Source: Cetobacterium somerae (lineage in GTDB: Bacteria > Fusobacteriota > Fusobacteriia > Fusobacteriales > Fusobacteriaceae). From it: 64,000 nt of DNA. The position numbers were made by a program, and so were the translations under genes. The number at the start of each line of letters is the position of its first letter. Position 1 is the first letter of the stretch. The stretch is taken from NCBI RefSeq assembly GCF_022430525.1, contig NZ_CP092522.1, positions 1 to 64,000 of the forward strand, written 5' to 3'. Below the pieces are notes generated by a model. The model was not told the DNA's origin. It did no database searches and saw nothing but the letters and a program-made list of their open reading frames with translations. Shown one piece after another: positions 10,768 through 38,431 of the stretch.

Positions 10768-10889
10768 TCTTTTTTATAATAAAAGTCAATAATTGAAAGC
10801 TATTAAAAAAAATGTTTCGAAAAATAAAAAAATGTTTTCCTTCAATCTTTGAATAAAATATGATAGAATTCTTTTAGAAAAATTATAAA

Positions 10890-10954
10890 ACTTATATATA
10901 TTTGGGATATGGCCAAAAGTTTCTACACCAAACCGTAAATTTGGTACTATAAGT
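10890..10954 (+). ncRNA. Purine (guanine-type) riboswitch aptamer
   Basis: P1 is ACTTATA (10890-10896) with TATAAGT (10948-10954). P2 is TTTGG/CCAAA around GATATGG, P3 is ACCAAA/TTTGGT around CCGTAAA, and the core junction contains GTTTCTAC. The two seven-base loops match the kissing-loop consensus. The specificity base in the 3' junction (ACTAT) is C, which in this family means guanine/hypoxanthine rather than adenine. A -10-like TATGATAGAAT lies about 25 bases upstream. A terminator follows at 10968-11000. Confidence 0.93.
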
Positions 10955-10967
10955 AAAAGTTAACTTA

Positions 10968-11000
10968 AAACAGTAAGCTTTTGCTTGCTGTTTATTTTTT
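10968..11000 (+). terminator. Expression-platform terminator of the guanine riboswitch
   Basis: CAGTAAGC (10971-10978) and GCTTGCTG (10983-10990) form a stem flanked by AAA/TTT and followed by a T-run ending at 11001. It lies between the aptamer and the SD of the amidohydrolase gene, consistent with ligand-induced termination. Confidence 0.88.
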
Positions 11001-11013
11001 TAGGGAGGGTTTT

Positions 11014-12432
11014 GTGAAAAACTATTTGAAAAATATGCTTTTAATAGGTACATTATTTTTGGTTGGATGTAGCTCTTTAATTCAAAAAAAAGAAAATGCT
11101 AGTATTATCATTAAAAATGGTACTATTTTAACTATGGATAAAAATAATAAAGTTATAAATAATGGAGTTGTTATTATAAAAGATAATAAAATTATTTCTG
11201 TAGGAAATGAAGAACTTTTAAAAATTTACTCCGCAAAAAAAATAATAGATGCTAAAAATGGCATAATTATGCCTGGTATGATTAATACACACAATCATCT
11301 TCCTATGATTGCTTTCAGAGGTCTTGGAGAAGAGGGAATAAAAAATAGATTATTCGCTTACTTTTTTCCATTAGAAGGAGAAAAATTAAATAGAGACTTA
11401 ATTTACAAAGCTACTGTTCATGGAAGTATTGATATGGCTCTTTCTGGAGTTACAACATATGCTGATATGTATTACCATATGGATGAAATGGCTAAGGCTA
11501 CAAAAGAGGTTGGAATTAGAGGTGTTCTCGGAGAAACTGTTATAAAATTCCCTGTTGTTGATGCTAAGACTCCTTATGGTGGAATTGAATATGCTATTAA
11601 TTTTATTGAAGAATACAAAAATGATGATTTAATTATTCCTGCTTTTGGTCCTCATGCTCCTTATACTGTTTCTAAAGAAAAAATGCAAGAAATCGAAAAT
11701 CTATCTAAAAAATATAATGTTCCTATTATGATTCATGTTGGAGAATTTGATGATGAAGATAAAAGATTAAATTTAAAAAATAAATCTGTTATTGAATATA
11801 TGGATTCTATTGGTGTATTAAATAATAGAGTTTTACTTGCTCATGCTATTCATTTAAATGAAAAAGATCTAGATATCATAAAAAAAAGAGAAGTTTCAAT
11901 TGCATATAATCCTATGGCTAATGCAAAAGGAGCCACAGGAATAGCAAGAGCTTATGAAATGTTAAATAAAAATATAAAAGTTGGACTCGGAACTGATGGA
12001 CCTATGAGCTCTAACCAAGTAGATCTTTTTAGAACTTTAAGTTATGCCTCTTCTATGCAAAGGTTAAAATATAACGATAGAACTATTATGACTCCAGATA
12101 TCGTTGTTAAAATGGCTACAATTGGAGGAGCCCAAGCTTTAAATCTAGATAAGAAAATTGGATCGATTGAACCTGGAAAATTAGCTGATATTGTCATAAT
12201 TGAAACTAAATCTCCTAATATGATGCCTAACTATGATCCTTTTGCTACTCTTGTTTTTCAAGCTAATCCATCTAATGTAGATACAACAATTGTTAATGGA
12301 AAAATAATTGTAGAAAATAAAAAATTAAAAACATATGATATCAAAAAAAATATAAAACAAATGAAAGAAATTGAAAATGATATTGCTAAATTTGCTAAAG
12401 AATTGGCAGAAAAAGCCAAAAGTATAAATTAA
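11014..12432 (+). CDS. Lipoprotein amidohydrolase (purine/MTA-SAH deaminase family) under a guanine riboswitch
   Basis: 472 aa from a GTG at 11014 behind GGGAGGG; a longer frame upstream would run through the terminator. Residues 1-19 are a lipoprotein signal (lipobox LVGC, Cys19), so the enzyme should be exported and lipid-anchored. The mature part is a complete metal-dependent amidohydrolase: metal HxH in MINTHNHLPM near residue 90, IMIHVGE near 245, HAIHL near 280 and the catalytic Asp in GLGTDGPMSSN near 330, followed by a composite beta-domain. The family includes 5-methylthioadenosine/S-adenosylhomocysteine, guanine and related deaminases. The riboswitch suggests a purine-ring substrate; the exact one is not decided by sequence. 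Most relatives are cytoplasmic. Confidence 0.88.
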   Translation: MKNYLKNMLLIGTLFLVGCSSLIQKKENASIIIKNGTILTMDKNNKVINNGVVIIKDNKIISVGNEELLKIYSAKKIIDAKNGIIMPGMINTHNHLPMIAFRGLGEEGIKNRLFAYFFPLEGEKLNRDLIYKATVHGSIDMALSGVTTYADMYYHMDEMAKATKEVGIRGVLGETVIKFPVVDAKTPYGGIEYAINFIEEYKNDDLIIPAFGPHAPYTVSKEKMQEIENLSKKYNVPIMIHVGEFDDEDKRLNLKNKSVIEYMDSIGVLNNRVLLAHAIHLNEKDLDIIKKREVSIAYNPMANAKGATGIARAYEMLNKNIKVGLGTDGPMSSNQVDLFRTLSYASSMQRLKYNDRTIMTPDIVVKMATIGGAQALNLDKKIGSIEPGKLADIVIIETKSPNMMPNYDPFATLVFQANPSNVDTTIVNGKIIVENKKLKTYDIKKNIKQMKEIENDIAKFAKELAEKAKSIN

Positions 12433-12553
12433 TTTTATCGTATTTGCTAAACTCATAAAATTACTCTCTTTTAATTAAATATTGACTTTTTTTTAACTCT
12501 TATATTATTATATAAATATAAAATTTTTATTAGCATCAAAAGGAGTTTAAATA

Positions 12554-12814
12554 ATGGAAAAAGAGGTTAAAATTTTAAAGGCTTTAGCTCATCCCTTAAG
12601 ACTTGATATTATAAAATTATTAATAAAAAATGAAGGTTTATGTGTTTGTAAAATACAAGAAACTTTTAATATTGGACAATCTAATCTATCCCAACATCTA
12701 AAAATTTTAAAAGATGCTGAAATTTTAAATGCAAAAAAAGACGGTGGTTGGGTTCATTATAGTTTAAAAAATAAAAAAATTATAGAAATTATAGATTTGT
12801 TAAAAGAATTTTAA
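12554..12814 (+). CDS. ArsR/SmtB-family transcriptional regulator
   Basis: 86 aa winged-helix repressor: LKALAHPLRLDIIKLL near the N-terminus, the recognition helix NLSQHLKILKDAEIL at about 48-62 and a beta-wing after it. The CVC pair in GLCVCKIQ corresponds to the metal/metalloid-binding ELCVC site of arsenic- and cadmium-type ArsR proteins. An AAAGGAG precedes the ATG, and TTGACT (12482-12487) with a TATTAT/TATATAAA region about 15-25 bases downstream is a likely promoter. No efflux or redox gene adjoins it on the same strand; a terminator follows, so it is monocistronic and its target is unknown. Confidence 0.85.
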   Translation: MEKEVKILKALAHPLRLDIIKLLIKNEGLCVCKIQETFNIGQSNLSQHLKILKDAEILNAKKDGGWVHYSLKNKKIIEIIDLLKEF

Positions 12815-17267: not shown

Positions 17268-17296
17268 AAATAATCAAAAAATAATTTACTTTAATA

Positions 17297-17447
17297 ACCG
17301 TTTGAGCTTTAGCTTCATAGGGCGATGAAATTGCATTATTCTATGCCTTGAATTCGACATAGACTGTTAACCAACTCATAGTGTCTCCACTATTTCGCGG
17401 CAGCAACCCTTATCCCTATGGTAGCCTCACCTACCGATTTTTCTATC
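17297..17447 (-). ncRNA. M-box (ykoK-type) magnesium riboswitch
   Basis: The minus strand shows the conserved blocks GGTAGGTGAGGCTACC, GTTGCTGCCG, GGAGACACTATG, GTTAACAG, ATGTCGA and, at the 3' end, CCTATGAAGCTAAAGCTC in the right order and spacing for the M-box. Mg2+ binding favours the downstream terminator and so represses the Mg2+ transporter gene. Transcription should begin near 17448. Confidence 0.94.
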
Positions 17448-34137: not shown

Positions 34138-35970
34138 TTATTTATTTTTTTCACTATTTATTCTCAAAACAACTAATCTAACCATTTCTATGATATCTTC
34201 TTCTAAAAGATTTTCTAAATTTTTTTTCAACAAAATCTCTTTTCCTACTTCTAACCTTAATAGCATCTCTTGATCAGAATCCATATTCAATAATCCAGAA
34301 TAAAAAGTTATTTTTTCATTTATTGATTTATAAACTTCTGTTAAATTTAATTTTTTTTTATCCTCATTTAATGGGATTATTTCTTCTATATCAACTTCAA
34401 TTTTTTTATCAAAATATCTTTTTTCTTCTAAGTAATCACATATTATGGTAGTCTTTCCGGCGTTAAACGCAATTTTCTGAATTTTTGTATCTTGTCCACA
34501 TTTTTTTACATAATATTCATATGCCTTTTTTTCTATTTCTAACTTCTCTTCCTCTAATAACTTATTAAATTCCTCTAAAGATTTTCTTGTTATTTTATTT
34601 TTAACTTGATCTTCTTCAACTTCTAATTTATTTATATTAAGTAATTCAAATTCTTCTTTTTTTTCAACTAAAACTACTTTTTCTTCATCTTTAGTCCAAT
34701 TATTTTCTAAAGCTTTAATAAAATACGCTCTTACTTTATCAACTTTATTCTTTTTCATATACACTGCAACTTTTTGAACTTTTTCTAGTCCATAATTTTC
34801 AATAGCATCTTTTATTGTTTTAGGCATTGTTTTTAAACTTCTTGCTTTTATAGGCATTAATTTTAAAACTTCATCTATCATTTCTGGTGTCACAACTATA
34901 AATTCTTTCAATTTTCCAGTATTATCATCCTGTAAATCTTTATTTTCCATATGACTAACTAATAACTGACTTTGACTTAAATGTCTAAATTCGTTTAAAT
35001 CATCAAAAAATCTTTGTTGTTTATCTTGAACAGTAAAATCATAAAAAAAGACCTCGACCTCTGCACTTTCCCAAGTTCCTTCTTTTTCTAAAATAAAATT
35101 TTTTATTAAATCTTTATCTTTTAATTCTTGAAAACTTTTAATTAAAGTTTTTACGGTTCTTCCTATATTACTTCTATCATATTTTAATGGAATTCTTTTA
35201 ATTAAATACATAACATCTATTTTTAAATAAACTTCATTAAATCTAAGTTTTTCAATTAACATATATATTGTTCTAGCAGTACTTGATTCTATATCTAATA
35301 AAACTGCAGCATCATAAACTAAATATCCTTTTGCTAGTATATTTTTATAAAAAAAATCAGATATTTTTATTTGATAAATTTCTTTAATTCTTTTATCGTT
35401 TATTTGAGCTTTAATTTCAGCATTTTCTTTTCTTTCTAAACTAACAATATCTAATTCAAAAATAGATCTTGTTATTTCTTCCTTTAAAAGTGATTTTAGT
35501 TCATTAAAATACATCGTATTTTTAAAACTATAAAAAGTATTTGCTATTCTTAGTAAACTTTTTTTTATAAGTTCATTTGCTCTATTTGTATTTAATCCTA
35601 ATTCTTTTTTTAATTCACTTAATGTAACCCAAAATTTTTGGGGCATTCCTTTATCTTTCATTATCTTCATCAATACTATAAATACTTTCTCTTCCATTTC
35701 GCCTGGAATATGATACCCTGATGCAGGAGTAACAGTTATATACGTATCTCTATTATTATTAAAATAATATTTAACTATTTGATTTGTTTTTCTTTTAGTA
35801 TTTTTACTAAATATAGGATACTGAATAATATTCATATCCATTCTAATTAATGCCCTATTTTTTATAAAACTCTCATCTAAGGTTATATTCTCTTCAACTA
35901 TTTCTGTTTCTGGTGTATCTATAATCTCTTGAAAATCTAAATTGTTGCTTTTCTTTTTCACTATTTTCAT
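34138..35970 (-). CDS. rep: Plasmid-type replication initiator (iteron-binding winged-helix Rep)
   Basis: 610 aa. Residues about 40-330 resemble RepA/Rep_3-type initiators with two winged-helix modules: YHIPGEMEEKVFIVLMKIMK near 86, WVTLSELKKELGLNTNRANE near 118, and DVMYLIKRIPLKYDRSNIGR near 250. Residues about 355-430 (NYGLEKVQKVAVYMKKNKVD ... KALENNWTKDEEK) resemble the C-terminal helical segment of other plasmid initiators, and the rest is charged and may form coiled coil. It would bind the iterons upstream, melt the adjacent AT-rich DNA and load the helicase. GTTGGAGATGAG precedes the ATG. Its promoter abuts the first iteron, so it is probably autoregulated. Exact Pfam family is not certain. 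Confidence 0.85.
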   Translation of the reverse strand: MKIVKKKSNNLDFQEIIDTPETEIVEENITLDESFIKNRALIRMDMNIIQYPIFSKNTKRKTNQIVKYYFNNNRDTYITVTPASGYHIPGEMEEKVFIVLMKIMKDKGMPQKFWVTLSELKKELGLNTNRANELIKKSLLRIANTFYSFKNTMYFNELKSLLKEEITRSIFELDIVSLERKENAEIKAQINDKRIKEIYQIKISDFFYKNILAKGYLVYDAAVLLDIESSTARTIYMLIEKLRFNEVYLKIDVMYLIKRIPLKYDRSNIGRTVKTLIKSFQELKDKDLIKNFILEKEGTWESAEVEVFFYDFTVQDKQQRFFDDLNEFRHLSQSQLLVSHMENKDLQDDNTGKLKEFIVVTPEMIDEVLKLMPIKARSLKTMPKTIKDAIENYGLEKVQKVAVYMKKNKVDKVRAYFIKALENNWTKDEEKVVLVEKKEEFELLNINKLEVEEDQVKNKITRKSLEEFNKLLEEEKLEIEKKAYEYYVKKCGQDTKIQKIAFNAGKTTIICDYLEEKRYFDKKIEVDIEEIIPLNEDKKKLNLTEVYKSINEKITFYSGLLNMDSDQEMLLRLEVGKEILLKKNLENLLEEDIIEMVRLVVLRINSEKNK

Positions 35971-36048
35971 AACTCATCTCCAACAATTTTTTCGTCATTA
36001 CATGGGTATATCTATATTAATTTTAGTTTTTTTTCATTGTTTTATTAA

Positions 36049-36077
36049 ATTATACCTAAAAATTTTATATTTTTCAA
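36049..36077 (-). promoter_or_regulatory. Promoter of the initiator gene
   Basis: TTGAAA (36077-36072), a 17-bp spacer and TATAAT (36054-36049) on the minus strand. The first iteron begins 6 bases upstream of the -35, so Rep bound there could repress or modulate its own gene. Confidence 0.82.
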
Positions 36078-36083
36078 GCTAAA

Positions 36084-36274
36084 TACTCCCACTTAATGAA
36101 GAAATTTTGCTTTTTCCTTAATTTATTCCCACTTAATGAAGATAAAAAATAAACAAATATTAGATACTCCCATCTAATGAGGATAGGTACTCCCACCTAA
36201 TGAGGAAAGTAGTCCCACTTAATGAGGATAGATACTCCCATCTAATGAGGAAAACTACTCCCATTAAATGAGGA
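36084..36274 (+). repeat. Replication origin: seven 19-bp iterons
   Basis: Direct repeats of consensus TACTCCCAYYTAATGARGA start at 36084, 36124, 36165, 36188, 36210, 36233 and 36256. The last five are spaced 22-23 bp (about two helical turns); the first two are at 40-41 bp intervals. TCCCA and AATGA are constant in every copy; the two copies nearest rep have GAAGA instead of GAGGA. Position next to a Rep gene and an AT-rich stretch identifies a theta-type origin. Confidence 0.93.
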
Positions 36275-36347
36275 TTTATATAATCGCCTTAAATCCTATA
36301 TAAATCAAGGGATATTTGCATTTTTTTTATAATATTTTTTGTACACA

Positions 36348-36377
36348 ACAATATATAACAATATATAACAATATATA
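36348..36377 (+). repeat. AT-rich tandem repeat beside the iterons (possible unwinding region)
   Basis: Three perfect tandem copies of the 10-mer ACAATATATA (36348-36357, 36358-36367, 36368-36377) followed by degenerate versions to about 36392. AT-rich repeats next to iterons are commonly the DNA-unwinding element. No exact DnaA box was found by eye. Confidence 0.65.
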
Positions 36378-36410
36378 AACAACTATAACAATGCTTAATT
36401 AAAAAAATAT

Positions 36411-36472
36411 CAACGCATTTTTAATATAAATTAAATTTATGCGTTGACTTTTAGTTAATTATGTTGTATTCT
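36411..36472 (+). promoter_or_regulatory. Promoter with inverted repeat in front of the partition genes
   Basis: TTGACT (36444-36449), a 17-bp spacer and TATTCT (36467-36472) form the promoter. The 8-bp arms CAACGCAT (36411-36418) and ATGCGTTG (36439-36446) flank an AT-rich centre and overlap the -35, as an operator would. Autoregulation by ParA or its N-terminal domain is a reasonable inference. Confidence 0.7.
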
Positions 36473-36493
36473 TATAATATAAAAATAAAAAAA

Positions 36494-36551
36494 AGAGGTA
36501 ATCAAAACGATATACCCCTACTGGCAATAGAAGTATATCATTTTATCCTCT
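36494..36551. promoter_or_regulatory. Long hairpin in the leader of the 44-aa/parA operon
   Basis: AGAGG...CGATATAC (36494-36514) pairs with GTATATCA...CCTCT (36533-36551) around the loop CCCCTACTGGCAATAGAA. Read on the minus strand the hairpin is followed by eight T residues, so it would terminate transcription running toward the origin. On the plus strand it is a structured 5' leader before the SD of the 44-aa gene. It might insulate the origin or be half of an antisense-RNA pair. Confidence 0.65.
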
Positions 36552-36571
36552 AAAAATCAAGGAGGCTTAAT

Positions 36572-36706
36572 ATGAGATTAACTGTATTAAAAAATGGAAT
36601 TGAAGTAACTCTTTATTTTAAAAAAAATTGTAAACAAGAAAAAGTGAAATATATTGTAAATTCAGAAGAAGAAGCCTATAAAATAGCTCAACTTCTTTTA
36701 TATTAA
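36572..36706 (+). CDS. Small protein, 44 aa, first gene of the partition operon
   Basis: ATG at 36572 behind AAGGAGG; stop TAA 36704-36706. The sequence (MRLTVLKNGIEVTLYFKKNC ... EEEAYKIAQLLLY) looks like a small beta-sheet followed by a helix, basic in the middle. It lies between the origin and parA, 46 bases before the latter. No family is recognised; small plasmid genes in this position are often copy-number or partition accessory proteins. Confidence 0.72.
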   Translation: MRLTVLKNGIEVTLYFKKNCKQEKVKYIVNSEEEAYKIAQLLLY

Positions 36707-36707
36707 T

Positions 36708-36737
36708 AAATATCTTCGGTCATGACCGAAGATATTT
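36708..36737. repeat. Perfect 30-bp palindrome, copy 2 (candidate parS / terminator)
   Basis: The 26-bp core at 36710-36735 is identical to that at 33541-33566. Here it is followed only by TTTT and then directly by the SD and start of parA, so its value as a terminator is small. A perfect palindrome immediately upstream of a parA gene is where type I partition systems commonly keep a centromere. Confidence 0.85.
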
Positions 36738-36752
36738 TCCTAAGGAGTAAAA

Positions 36753-37826
36753 ATGGTTTTCGAAAAAAAAATAAATATAATATTTAATAAAAAAAATAAA
36801 ATATCAACAGCTTATCTGAATATTCCAATGAAAGGAATAAAAATAATGAACGAACCTCAAATATTAAAATGTTTTTATAATAAAAAAAATAATGAAATAA
36901 TTTTGAAAAAAGACAATGAAGGACAACCACTTATTATACAAGCAAATGGAAATAGTAAACTTTATAGATTTACTCTAGATAAAGAAATAATTGAAAAAAC
37001 AGGATACAAAAAAAATCAACTAGTTAAAATAGATATTACTACAGATCAAATAAAAATAAACTTTAATCAGGAGGAAAAGATGTCTAAAATAATATCAATT
37101 ATTAATTTTAAAGGTGGAGTAGGAAAAACAACAACAACTCATTGCATTGGAGCAGGTTTAACATTAGAAAATAAAAAAGTTTTATTAATTGATACAGATC
37201 CTCAGGCTAGTTTAACATTTACAGCTTTATCTGAAACTCCTAAATTAACAATAAAAGACATTTTGGTAGATCAAAAAAATATTAATAATGTTATTCTTGA
37301 AACAGACAACTTTGATTTAATTCCATCTAATTTAATTTTAAACTTAGCAGAAAGACAATTGACTTCTAAATTTGGAACAGAAAAATTATTAAAAAAAGCT
37401 TTAAATAAACTAGAAAAAACATATGATTATATAATAATTGATTGCCCTCCTAGTATGAATCTATTTACTATAAATGCTTTATATGCATCAGATTATATAT
37501 TAATTCCTTGTGAAACAGAACTTTTAGCATTAGATGGATTAAATCTTTTAATTCAAACATTAGAACAGACAGAAGAAGAATTGGATGTAAAAATAAAAAA
37601 CACTTTAGTTTTACCAACTAAGTTAGATAAAAGAAAAAAAGTAAGTAAAGAGATTTTTGAACATTTAAAAGAAAACTTTAAAACAACAAACGCTACAATA
37701 AGAACTTGTTCAAAATTAAATTTATTAGGACTTGATAAAAATTCAATTTATCAAATAGATTCAACATGTACAGCAGCAACAGATTATAAAAATTTAGTGG
37801 GGGAAATTATAAAATGGGATTGTTAG
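36753..37826 (+). CDS. parA: ParA-family partition ATPase with N-terminal AbrB-like extension and internal start
   Basis: 357 aa. Residues 110-357 are a standard ParA: deviant Walker A in NFKGGVGKTTTT near residue 117-128, DTDPQASLT near 147, and YIIIDCPPSMNL near 220. Residues 1-109 are an added region with two stretches resembling swapped-hairpin AbrB/MazE DNA-binding folds (NKISTAYLNIP near 20 and RFTLDKEIIEKTGYKKNQLV near 70). A consensus SD (AGGAGG) sits in frame 6 bases before the ATG at 37080, so a 248-aa ParA without the extension is probably made as well. AAGGAG precedes the long start. It overlaps the downstream gene by 13 bases. Confidence 0.9.
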   Translation: MVFEKKINIIFNKKNKISTAYLNIPMKGIKIMNEPQILKCFYNKKNNEIILKKDNEGQPLIIQANGNSKLYRFTLDKEIIEKTGYKKNQLVKIDITTDQIKINFNQEEKMSKIISIINFKGGVGKTTTTHCIGAGLTLENKKVLLIDTDPQASLTFTALSETPKLTIKDILVDQKNINNVILETDNFDLIPSNLILNLAERQLTSKFGTEKLLKKALNKLEKTYDYIIIDCPPSMNLFTINALYASDYILIPCETELLALDGLNLLIQTLEQTEEELDVKIKNTLVLPTKLDKRKKVSKEIFEHLKENFKTTNATIRTCSKLNLLGLDKNSIYQIDSTCTAATDYKNLVGEIIKWDC

Positions 37827-38431
37827 CAAATTATAAAAAAAGTGAAGTTGTAATAAAAAAAGAAAAATTTGATTCAAATTTTGACTATACAGGTTTTAAT
37901 ATTAATGACAAAGAATATTTGATTGAACTTGAAAAAAAAGCAATATATACTGGAAATTTATTAAAAGAAAACGTAAAAGAACTTGGTGATGTTTTTTTAG
38001 AAGCACATAAAATATTTTCAAATAATAAAAATGGAATGTTTGGGAAATGGTATGAAAATTTAGGATTTAAAAAAGATTTTGTATATCTTTGTTTAGATAG
38101 AAAACAATTATCTATACAATATGATTCAACTACTATTTATAAACTTCCTGATAGAGTTATAAAAGATTTAAAAAAGATTGAAAAAGAAAATGAAGAAATT
38201 ATAGTTGAAATTTTAAACTCTGAAAATCCAAAAGAAAAATTAAAAGAAATAAAACAATCTTTAAATCAAAATAGAATAAATCAAAATAAAATAAATCAAA
38301 ATACAAAAAAAGAAAAGATAAAAGAAAAATTATGTATTTTTCTAAAAATTATAAATAATAATGAATTCAGTGATGAAAAATTAATTAAAATAGATAATAT
38401 TTTATTAAAATTAGAAGATGAAATATTGTAA
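37814..38431 (+). CDS. ParB-like partition partner, non-canonical
   Basis: 205 aa, basic. It overlaps the end of parA by 13 bases (start ATG at 37814 behind GGGGGA), so the two are coupled. Residues about 45-105 (AIYTGNLLKENVKELGDVFL and NGMFGKWYENLGFKKDFVYL) resemble the short helical DNA-binding proteins that accompany plasmid ParA (DUF3102-like). A lysine/asparagine-rich linker with repeated INQNK units (about 145-160) joins a C-terminal helix. There is no canonical ParB CTPase motif. It probably binds the centromere; this is inferred from gene position. Confidence 0.75.
   Translation: MGLLANYKKSEVVIKKEKFDSNFDYTGFNINDKEYLIELEKKAIYTGNLLKENVKELGDVFLEAHKIFSNNKNGMFGKWYENLGFKKDFVYLCLDRKQLSIQYDSTTIYKLPDRVIKDLKKIEKENEEIIVEILNSENPKEKLKEIKQSLNQNRINQNKINQNTKKEKIKEKLCIFLKIINNNEFSDEKLIKIDNILLKLEDEIL

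Follow-up and report, generated by a model that had tools for sequence, protein, structure and literature searches.

Positions 10890 to 12432 of the window (the 64,000-nucleotide stretch analysed here, part of a 128-kb contig in the 2.97 Mb genome of Cetobacterium somerae) hold a riboswitch leader and the gene for a putative exported lipoprotein amidohydrolase. Cetobacterium somerae is a species of the Fusobacteriaceae found in the fish intestine. The coding sequence runs from a GTG start at 11014 to a stop at 12432 (+ strand) and encodes 472 amino acids. By sequence, Pfam and structure comparison the product resembles adenosine/MTA/SAH deaminases. The ribosome-binding site AGGGAGGG (11002-11009, +) precedes the start, and relatives keep GGGAGG or GGAGGA there. 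The protein begins with VKNYLKNMLLIGTLFLVGC, followed by SSL. This lipoprotein signal (11014-11070, +) has a basic n-region, a hydrophobic h-region and the lipobox LVGC, whose invariant Cys19 is the predicted lipid anchor.

Window positions 8000-30000 match plasmid p4 of C. somerae strain ceto over their full length at 97.6% identity, and thus the amidohydrolase gene is plasmid-borne. ParA-like and replication-initiator-like genes at 34138-38431 fit a plasmid. In the p4 record the gene is labeled merely "amidohydrolase." Strain ceto carries dxs (WP_330112642.1) between this gene and arsR; dxs is absent from window positions 12432-12554, and the sole dxs of the present genome is a distant one at another site. 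The neighboring regulators of ArsR and RpiR type were rejected as partners, as a shared operon is not evident and dxs precedes arsR in the reference plasmid. The amidohydrolase gene has no operon partner able to name its substrate. An M-box magnesium riboswitch (17290-17445, -; 109.6 bits) precedes mgtA, a gene for which such a switch is expected.

The leader contains a purine riboswitch aptamer of the guanine class at 10890-10954 (+), identified by Rfam model RF00167 (match 10872-10969, +; 68 bits, gathering threshold 37; E 8e-10) and by covariation. Its stems are P1 (10890-10896/10948-10954), P2 (10901-10905/10913-10917) and P3 (10927-10932/10940-10945). J2/3 reads GUUUCUAC, which retains U51 and is not the xanthine-II variant, and J3/1 reads ACUA, with the specificity base C74 at 10947. 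Positions 51 and 74 have known roles in the purine aptamer class (PMC11477304, PMC9295807), and U51 together with C74 therefore places the aptamer in the guanine/hypoxanthine class. Upstream is a candidate sigma-70-type promoter, TTCAAT ... TAGAAT (10841-10869, +), which is proposed from consensus resemblance and is weak in this copy. The leader alignment retains a -10-like TAGAAT/TAAAAT in most Cetobacterium relatives and a TTGACT/TTGACA-like -35 in several.

Two mutually exclusive structures are predicted downstream of the aptamer. The antiterminator (10950-10987, +), seen in the minimum-energy fold of the 103-nt transcript and in alignment pairing, consists of 12 pairs between 10950-10961 and 10976-10987. 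It takes up the 3′ strand of P1, the terminator loop and parts of the terminator arms. The intrinsic terminator, AAACAGUAAGC-UUUU-GCUUGCUGUUU followed by a U tract (10968-11001, +), was found by folding; its hairpin (10968-10993) has a predicted energy of -15.1 kcal/mol, and 3/200 shuffles fold equally well. In folds of the growing transcript the aptamer prevails up to 90 nt and the antiterminator at 103 nt, and the aptamer is predicted together with the terminator at 109 and 119 nt. This layout is predicted to be an ordinary OFF-switch arrangement. Across 14 homologous leaders of Cetobacterium and its near relatives, 14 of the 29 aptamer and terminator pairs have changed on both sides, a count that none of 500 shuffles reached (slid controls, 1 to 6). 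The antiterminator has weaker covariation support. Across the leaders 90.5% of its cells are paired, compared with 30-54% in slid versions, and its covariation score is 0.188 vs. 0.035-0.091, with two pairs changed on both sides. The aptamer alone folds no better than its shuffles (z -0.44), so the evidence for it comes from the covariance model and from covariation. The sequence-only reading of this locus had named a guanine aptamer and repression by guanine; the aptamer class holds, and the modeled folds agree with repression. In vivo, guanine or hypoxanthine would be the ligand and OFF the direction.

The protein matches Pfam Amidohydro_1 (PF01979) over residues 84-432 (E 4e-65; 221 bits against a gathering score of 25). 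An AlphaFold2 model (pLDDT 85) has as its nearest solved folds the adenosine/MTA deaminases 4dzh, 4f0r, 4dyk and 4gbd (Z 52-54), and it aligns with TM0936 at Z 47. By alignment the catalytic residues are H93 and H95 (the HxH motif), E121, H214, H241, E244, H277 and D328 (11290-11999, +). All eight are invariant in 80/80 relatives and are also present in 4f0r and 4dyk, with which the metal-site and acid/base residues H93, H95, H241, E244, H277 and D328 align. The amidohydrolase reaches none of the cut-offs of the curated deaminase equivalogs, scoring 215 bits for MTA/SAH deaminase (NF012037, cut-off 779) and 290 bits for 5′-deoxyadenosine deaminase (NF005557, cut-off 522). The pocket also departs from the 4f0r/4dyk type. 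At position 112, 78/80 relatives share Arg with this protein, whereas 4f0r, 4dyk and several cytosolic fusobacterial homologs carry Trp; the preceding loop is shorter than in MTA/SAH deaminases. Part of the substrate pocket therefore differs from that of MTA/SAH deaminases. Phe118 replaces a further Trp, and TDGPM replaces TDGAA. In TM0936 the Trp equivalent to Arg112 presumably sits close to the 5′ substituent of the nucleoside ligand. We read the protein as a nucleoside deaminase with specificity altered on the 5′ side. Its substrate is most likely an adenosine-like nucleoside, i.e., adenosine, 5′-deoxyadenosine, MTA or a relative. The same departures (Arg112, Phe118, TDGPM), along with the missed equivalog cut-offs, could instead mark an exported amidohydrolase that acts on, e.g., a 5′-phosphorylated or otherwise charged adenosine or on a modified purine, with Arg112 as the specificity residue. 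We consider this rather unlikely, as the catalytic residues, including Glu121 and His214, are those of nucleoside deaminases.

The two ends of the gene have different affinities, which the sequence-only reading had missed. Windowed DNA comparisons show that a 5′ cassette (10890-11235, +), comprising the riboswitch, the signal and the first ~74 codons, resembles a resident paralog. The aptamer DNA at 10897-10956 is 98% identical to that of the paralog, and identity declines upstream of the leader. Over residues 1-72 the protein shares 67-69% identity with the paralog (69% for residues 1-29), and beyond residue 72 this falls to 46-52%. Similarity to lipoproteins of the Vibrionaceae runs the other way, rising from 42-53% over residues 30-72 to 75-82% over residues 73-240. 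The catalytic body overall is 56-82% identical to these proteins vs. 46-52% to the paralog. The best-fitting breakpoint comes after residue 73-76 (permutation p 0.0008-0.007), and at informative sites in residues 30-76, 11-13 favor the paralog and 3-6 the other group. The whole-protein tree places the gene beside a MAG protein and the Vibrionaceae lipoproteins (100/99) and well away from the paralog. The MAG protein has a Sec signal and no riboswitch. Genes of this type carry the switch in four Cetobacterium genomes, and the paralog does so in nine. The simplest reading of these comparisons has a catalytic body of this type, within the Cetobacterium lineage, taking over the switch, signal and N-terminal strands of the resident paralog, which would be the likely direction of recombination.

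It is also conceivable that there was no recombination and that a common ancestor gave both paralogs their switch and signal before the bodies diverged. The whole leader is present in both copies, and the recombination signal within the mature N terminus is modest (11-13 vs. 3-6 sites). The evidence from within the mature protein comes from 14-17 informative sites, which leaves common ancestry some probability. We regard it as unlikely: the tree partners (the MAG protein and the Vibrionaceae lipoproteins scanned) lack the switch, and the aptamers are 98% identical, yet roughly every second residue differs between the bodies.

The amidohydrolase belongs to a sizable purine regulon. We found 15 purine riboswitches in the C. 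somerae genome; among the leaders listed, the aptamer carries C74 in 13 and U74 in two. The two U74 (adenine-type) aptamers (L021:6710-6809 and L022:1897-1994) precede an adenosine deaminase gene and a permease gene, which is reminiscent of the Vibrio add switch. Several regulon genes were named by eye from their sequence. Those for transport and binding encode NCS2/AzgA-type permeases and a BMP-type binding protein, and those for purine enzymes include purE/purK, guaA, an adenine-deaminase-like gene, xanthine-dehydrogenase-like subunits and a cytosolic amidohydrolase. The latter (L014:4930-6297; 30% identity) adjoins a permease and has Arg at the His214 position, which is His in the exported family and in MTA deaminases; this paralog probably acts on another substrate. 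Exported products include another lipoprotein amidohydrolase (the resident paralog, 52% identity) and a pair of signal-peptide proteins of the MTA/SAH-nucleosidase family (L020:2100-3027 and L017:5871-6811). The L020 nucleosidase scores 268 bits, above the MTAN cut-off of 169, and is distinct from a cytosolic-type MTAN copy at G000:C1:1489286. Exported orthologs of this MTAN occur in other Fusobacteria, and those in other Cetobacterium have purine riboswitches. In another genus of Fusobacteriaceae (g4), loci with an exported MTAN (L161, L165, L170 and L171) have a SAM riboswitch instead. Because the regulon holds exported partners, and given the Borrelia precedent discussed below, guanine-controlled periplasmic processing of nucleosides is a reasonable reading.

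A guanine switch could also point to an exported guanine (or other free-base) deaminase whose switch senses its own substrate, and guanine deaminases do exist in the superfamily. This seems quite improbable. The protein scores 168 bits for the guanine deaminase equivalog TIGR02967 (cut-off 375), and its model aligns with guanine deaminases at Z about 40, vs. 53 for adenosine/MTA deaminases. It also retains the PHAPY/Glu121 pattern of the nucleoside deaminases 4f0r and 4dyk, and an OFF switch that lets a catabolic enzyme be repressed by its own substrate would be backwards. Of the MTA/SAH/guanine-deaminase-type domain originally proposed, the full deaminase core is borne out as adenosine/MTA/SAH-like, and guanine as substrate is disfavored.

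Export appears to be a trait of the subfamily. Close relatives in the Fusobacteria have lipoboxes or Sec-type signals, except for three members of one genus. In a wider sample of 80 loci from named genomes, 18 are Vibrionaceae lipoproteins 61-66% identical to this amidohydrolase, and signal peptides are found in most of the remaining Gram-negative members (Proteus, Providencia, Photobacterium, Moritella, Opitutae, Acidobacteria and others). The clostridial members of the sample lack a signal. Signals were called by eye and simple rules rather than by a trained predictor. The sequence-only reading had noted that family members of known function act in the cytoplasm; within this subfamily export is not odd, since most Gram-negative members sampled appear to be exported. 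The lipoprotein signal proposed in that reading does hold. It is conserved in orthologs from four of four Cetobacterium species, and changes in codons 1-29 are mostly synonymous (pN 0.12-0.14, pS 0.54-0.63). The next usable ATG, codon 8, is the RefSeq start (WP_330112687.1, L150:8001-8022), and the lipobox is still inside. Lying seven codons downstream of the conserved GTG, the RefSeq start cuts off the basic n-region of the signal. A cytosolic protein with a downstream start and an untranslated hydrophobic N terminus, for which the lack of a signal in three Fusobacteriaceae and several clostridia might speak, is hardly credible, as the GTG at 11014 has a good ribosome-binding site, the signal is under purifying selection in four species and the lipobox is retained even from the RefSeq start. 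The lipoprotein is thus likely to reside in the cell envelope.

No purine riboswitch was found at gathering score in 20 loci of Vibrionaceae and other distant relatives. Since the Vibrionaceae relatives show no riboswitch, the purine link rests on the Fusobacteria. A gene for an exported class-II cAMP phosphodiesterase lies close to the amidohydrolase gene in two Aliivibrio loci, and one Vibrio locus has an 8-oxoguanine deaminase and a xanthine permease. Gene neighborhoods in Vibrionaceae were rejected as a substrate clue because they are too inconsistent.

Taking together the anatomy of the switch, the signal, the fold, the catalytic residues, membership in the regulon and the mosaic similarity, all established at the level of sequence and its comparison, we think it probable that this is a chimeric gene in which an OFF switch controls an exported nucleoside deaminase for purine salvage. 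Binding of guanine or hypoxanthine would close P1, the terminator would form and transcription would stop. When the gene is expressed, the lipoprotein, a zinc-type amidohydrolase, would be exported to the cell envelope and deaminate adenosine-like nucleosides outside the cytoplasm. With its regulon partners (the paralogous lipoprotein, the exported nucleosidases, the BMP-type protein and the NCS2/AzgA-type permeases) it may turn adenine nucleosides outside the cell into inosine- or hypoxanthine-type products for uptake. Intracellular hypoxanthine or guanine would then shut the gene off as end-product control. The chimera would join the switch, signal and first strands of the paralog to a catalytic body of the Vibrionaceae-lipoprotein type. 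Salvage of purines from outside the cell, as first suggested, stands as the likely role. A bolder version is that a widespread exported deaminase subfamily with a remodeled Arg112 pocket uses a nucleoside or nucleotide that is not a substrate of any known member, and that in Cetobacterium recombination moved the switch and signal together onto the body of another enzyme, linking it to a guanine-riboswitch-controlled periplasmic purine pathway of exported deaminases and nucleosidases. We offer it tentatively and would lean somewhat against it.

In the usual picture of purine salvage, purines are taken up and then converted in the cytosol. Here the conversion of nucleosides appears to be extracytoplasmic, with the end product exerting control directly via RNA. 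The exported deaminase subfamily spans several phyla and includes fish-associated Vibrionaceae. We found no characterized member of it, the Vibrionaceae lipoproteins included, and a single enzyme assay would therefore annotate many genes. Among the open-access papers searched we found nothing relevant linking guanine riboswitches with deaminases, lipoproteins or Cetobacterium, which is no proof of absence. The paralog pair is an example of a riboswitch and an export signal apparently traveling together as a cassette, and such movement bears on the routes by which genes enter a riboswitch regulon.

The C. somerae switch is like the guanine-I riboswitches (RF00167, xpt/guaA type) in its three-way junction, U51, C74 and terminator-type OFF layout. 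The guanine switches of C. difficile listed in PMC11477304 are OFF switches that control permeases, xpt and guaA, whereas this one precedes an exported lipoprotein enzyme. The enzyme shares with the MTA/SAH/adenosine deaminases of the TRZ/ATZ group (4f0r/4f0s, 4dyk/4gbd and TM0936) the fold (Z 47-54), the HxH, His, Glu, His and Asp catalytic residues and the equivalents of Glu121 and His214. It differs from them in being exported, in Arg112 and Phe118 for Trp, in PM for AA after TDG and in the shorter loop, and it falls below the equivalog cut-offs of deaminases of this type. The lipoprotein amidohydrolases of Vibrionaceae (Photobacterium, Aliivibrio and Vibrio) share 61-66% identity, the lipobox and the catalytic residues, but have another signal sequence and no purine riboswitch in the loci scanned. 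Borrelia burgdorferi exports the MTANs Bgp and MtnN, a precedent for exported purine nucleoside salvage enzymes (PMC7557402). These have the nucleosidase fold and are not deaminases; the C. somerae regulon also has exported MTAN-type proteins. Three MTANs have been called unique to B. burgdorferi (PMC7557402). C. somerae has two exported MTAN-family genes besides its cytosolic-type copy. Compared with these systems, what appears to be new in C. somerae is an exported deaminase subfamily with an altered pocket, a purine regulon with exported partners and a cassette-like origin of switch and signal.
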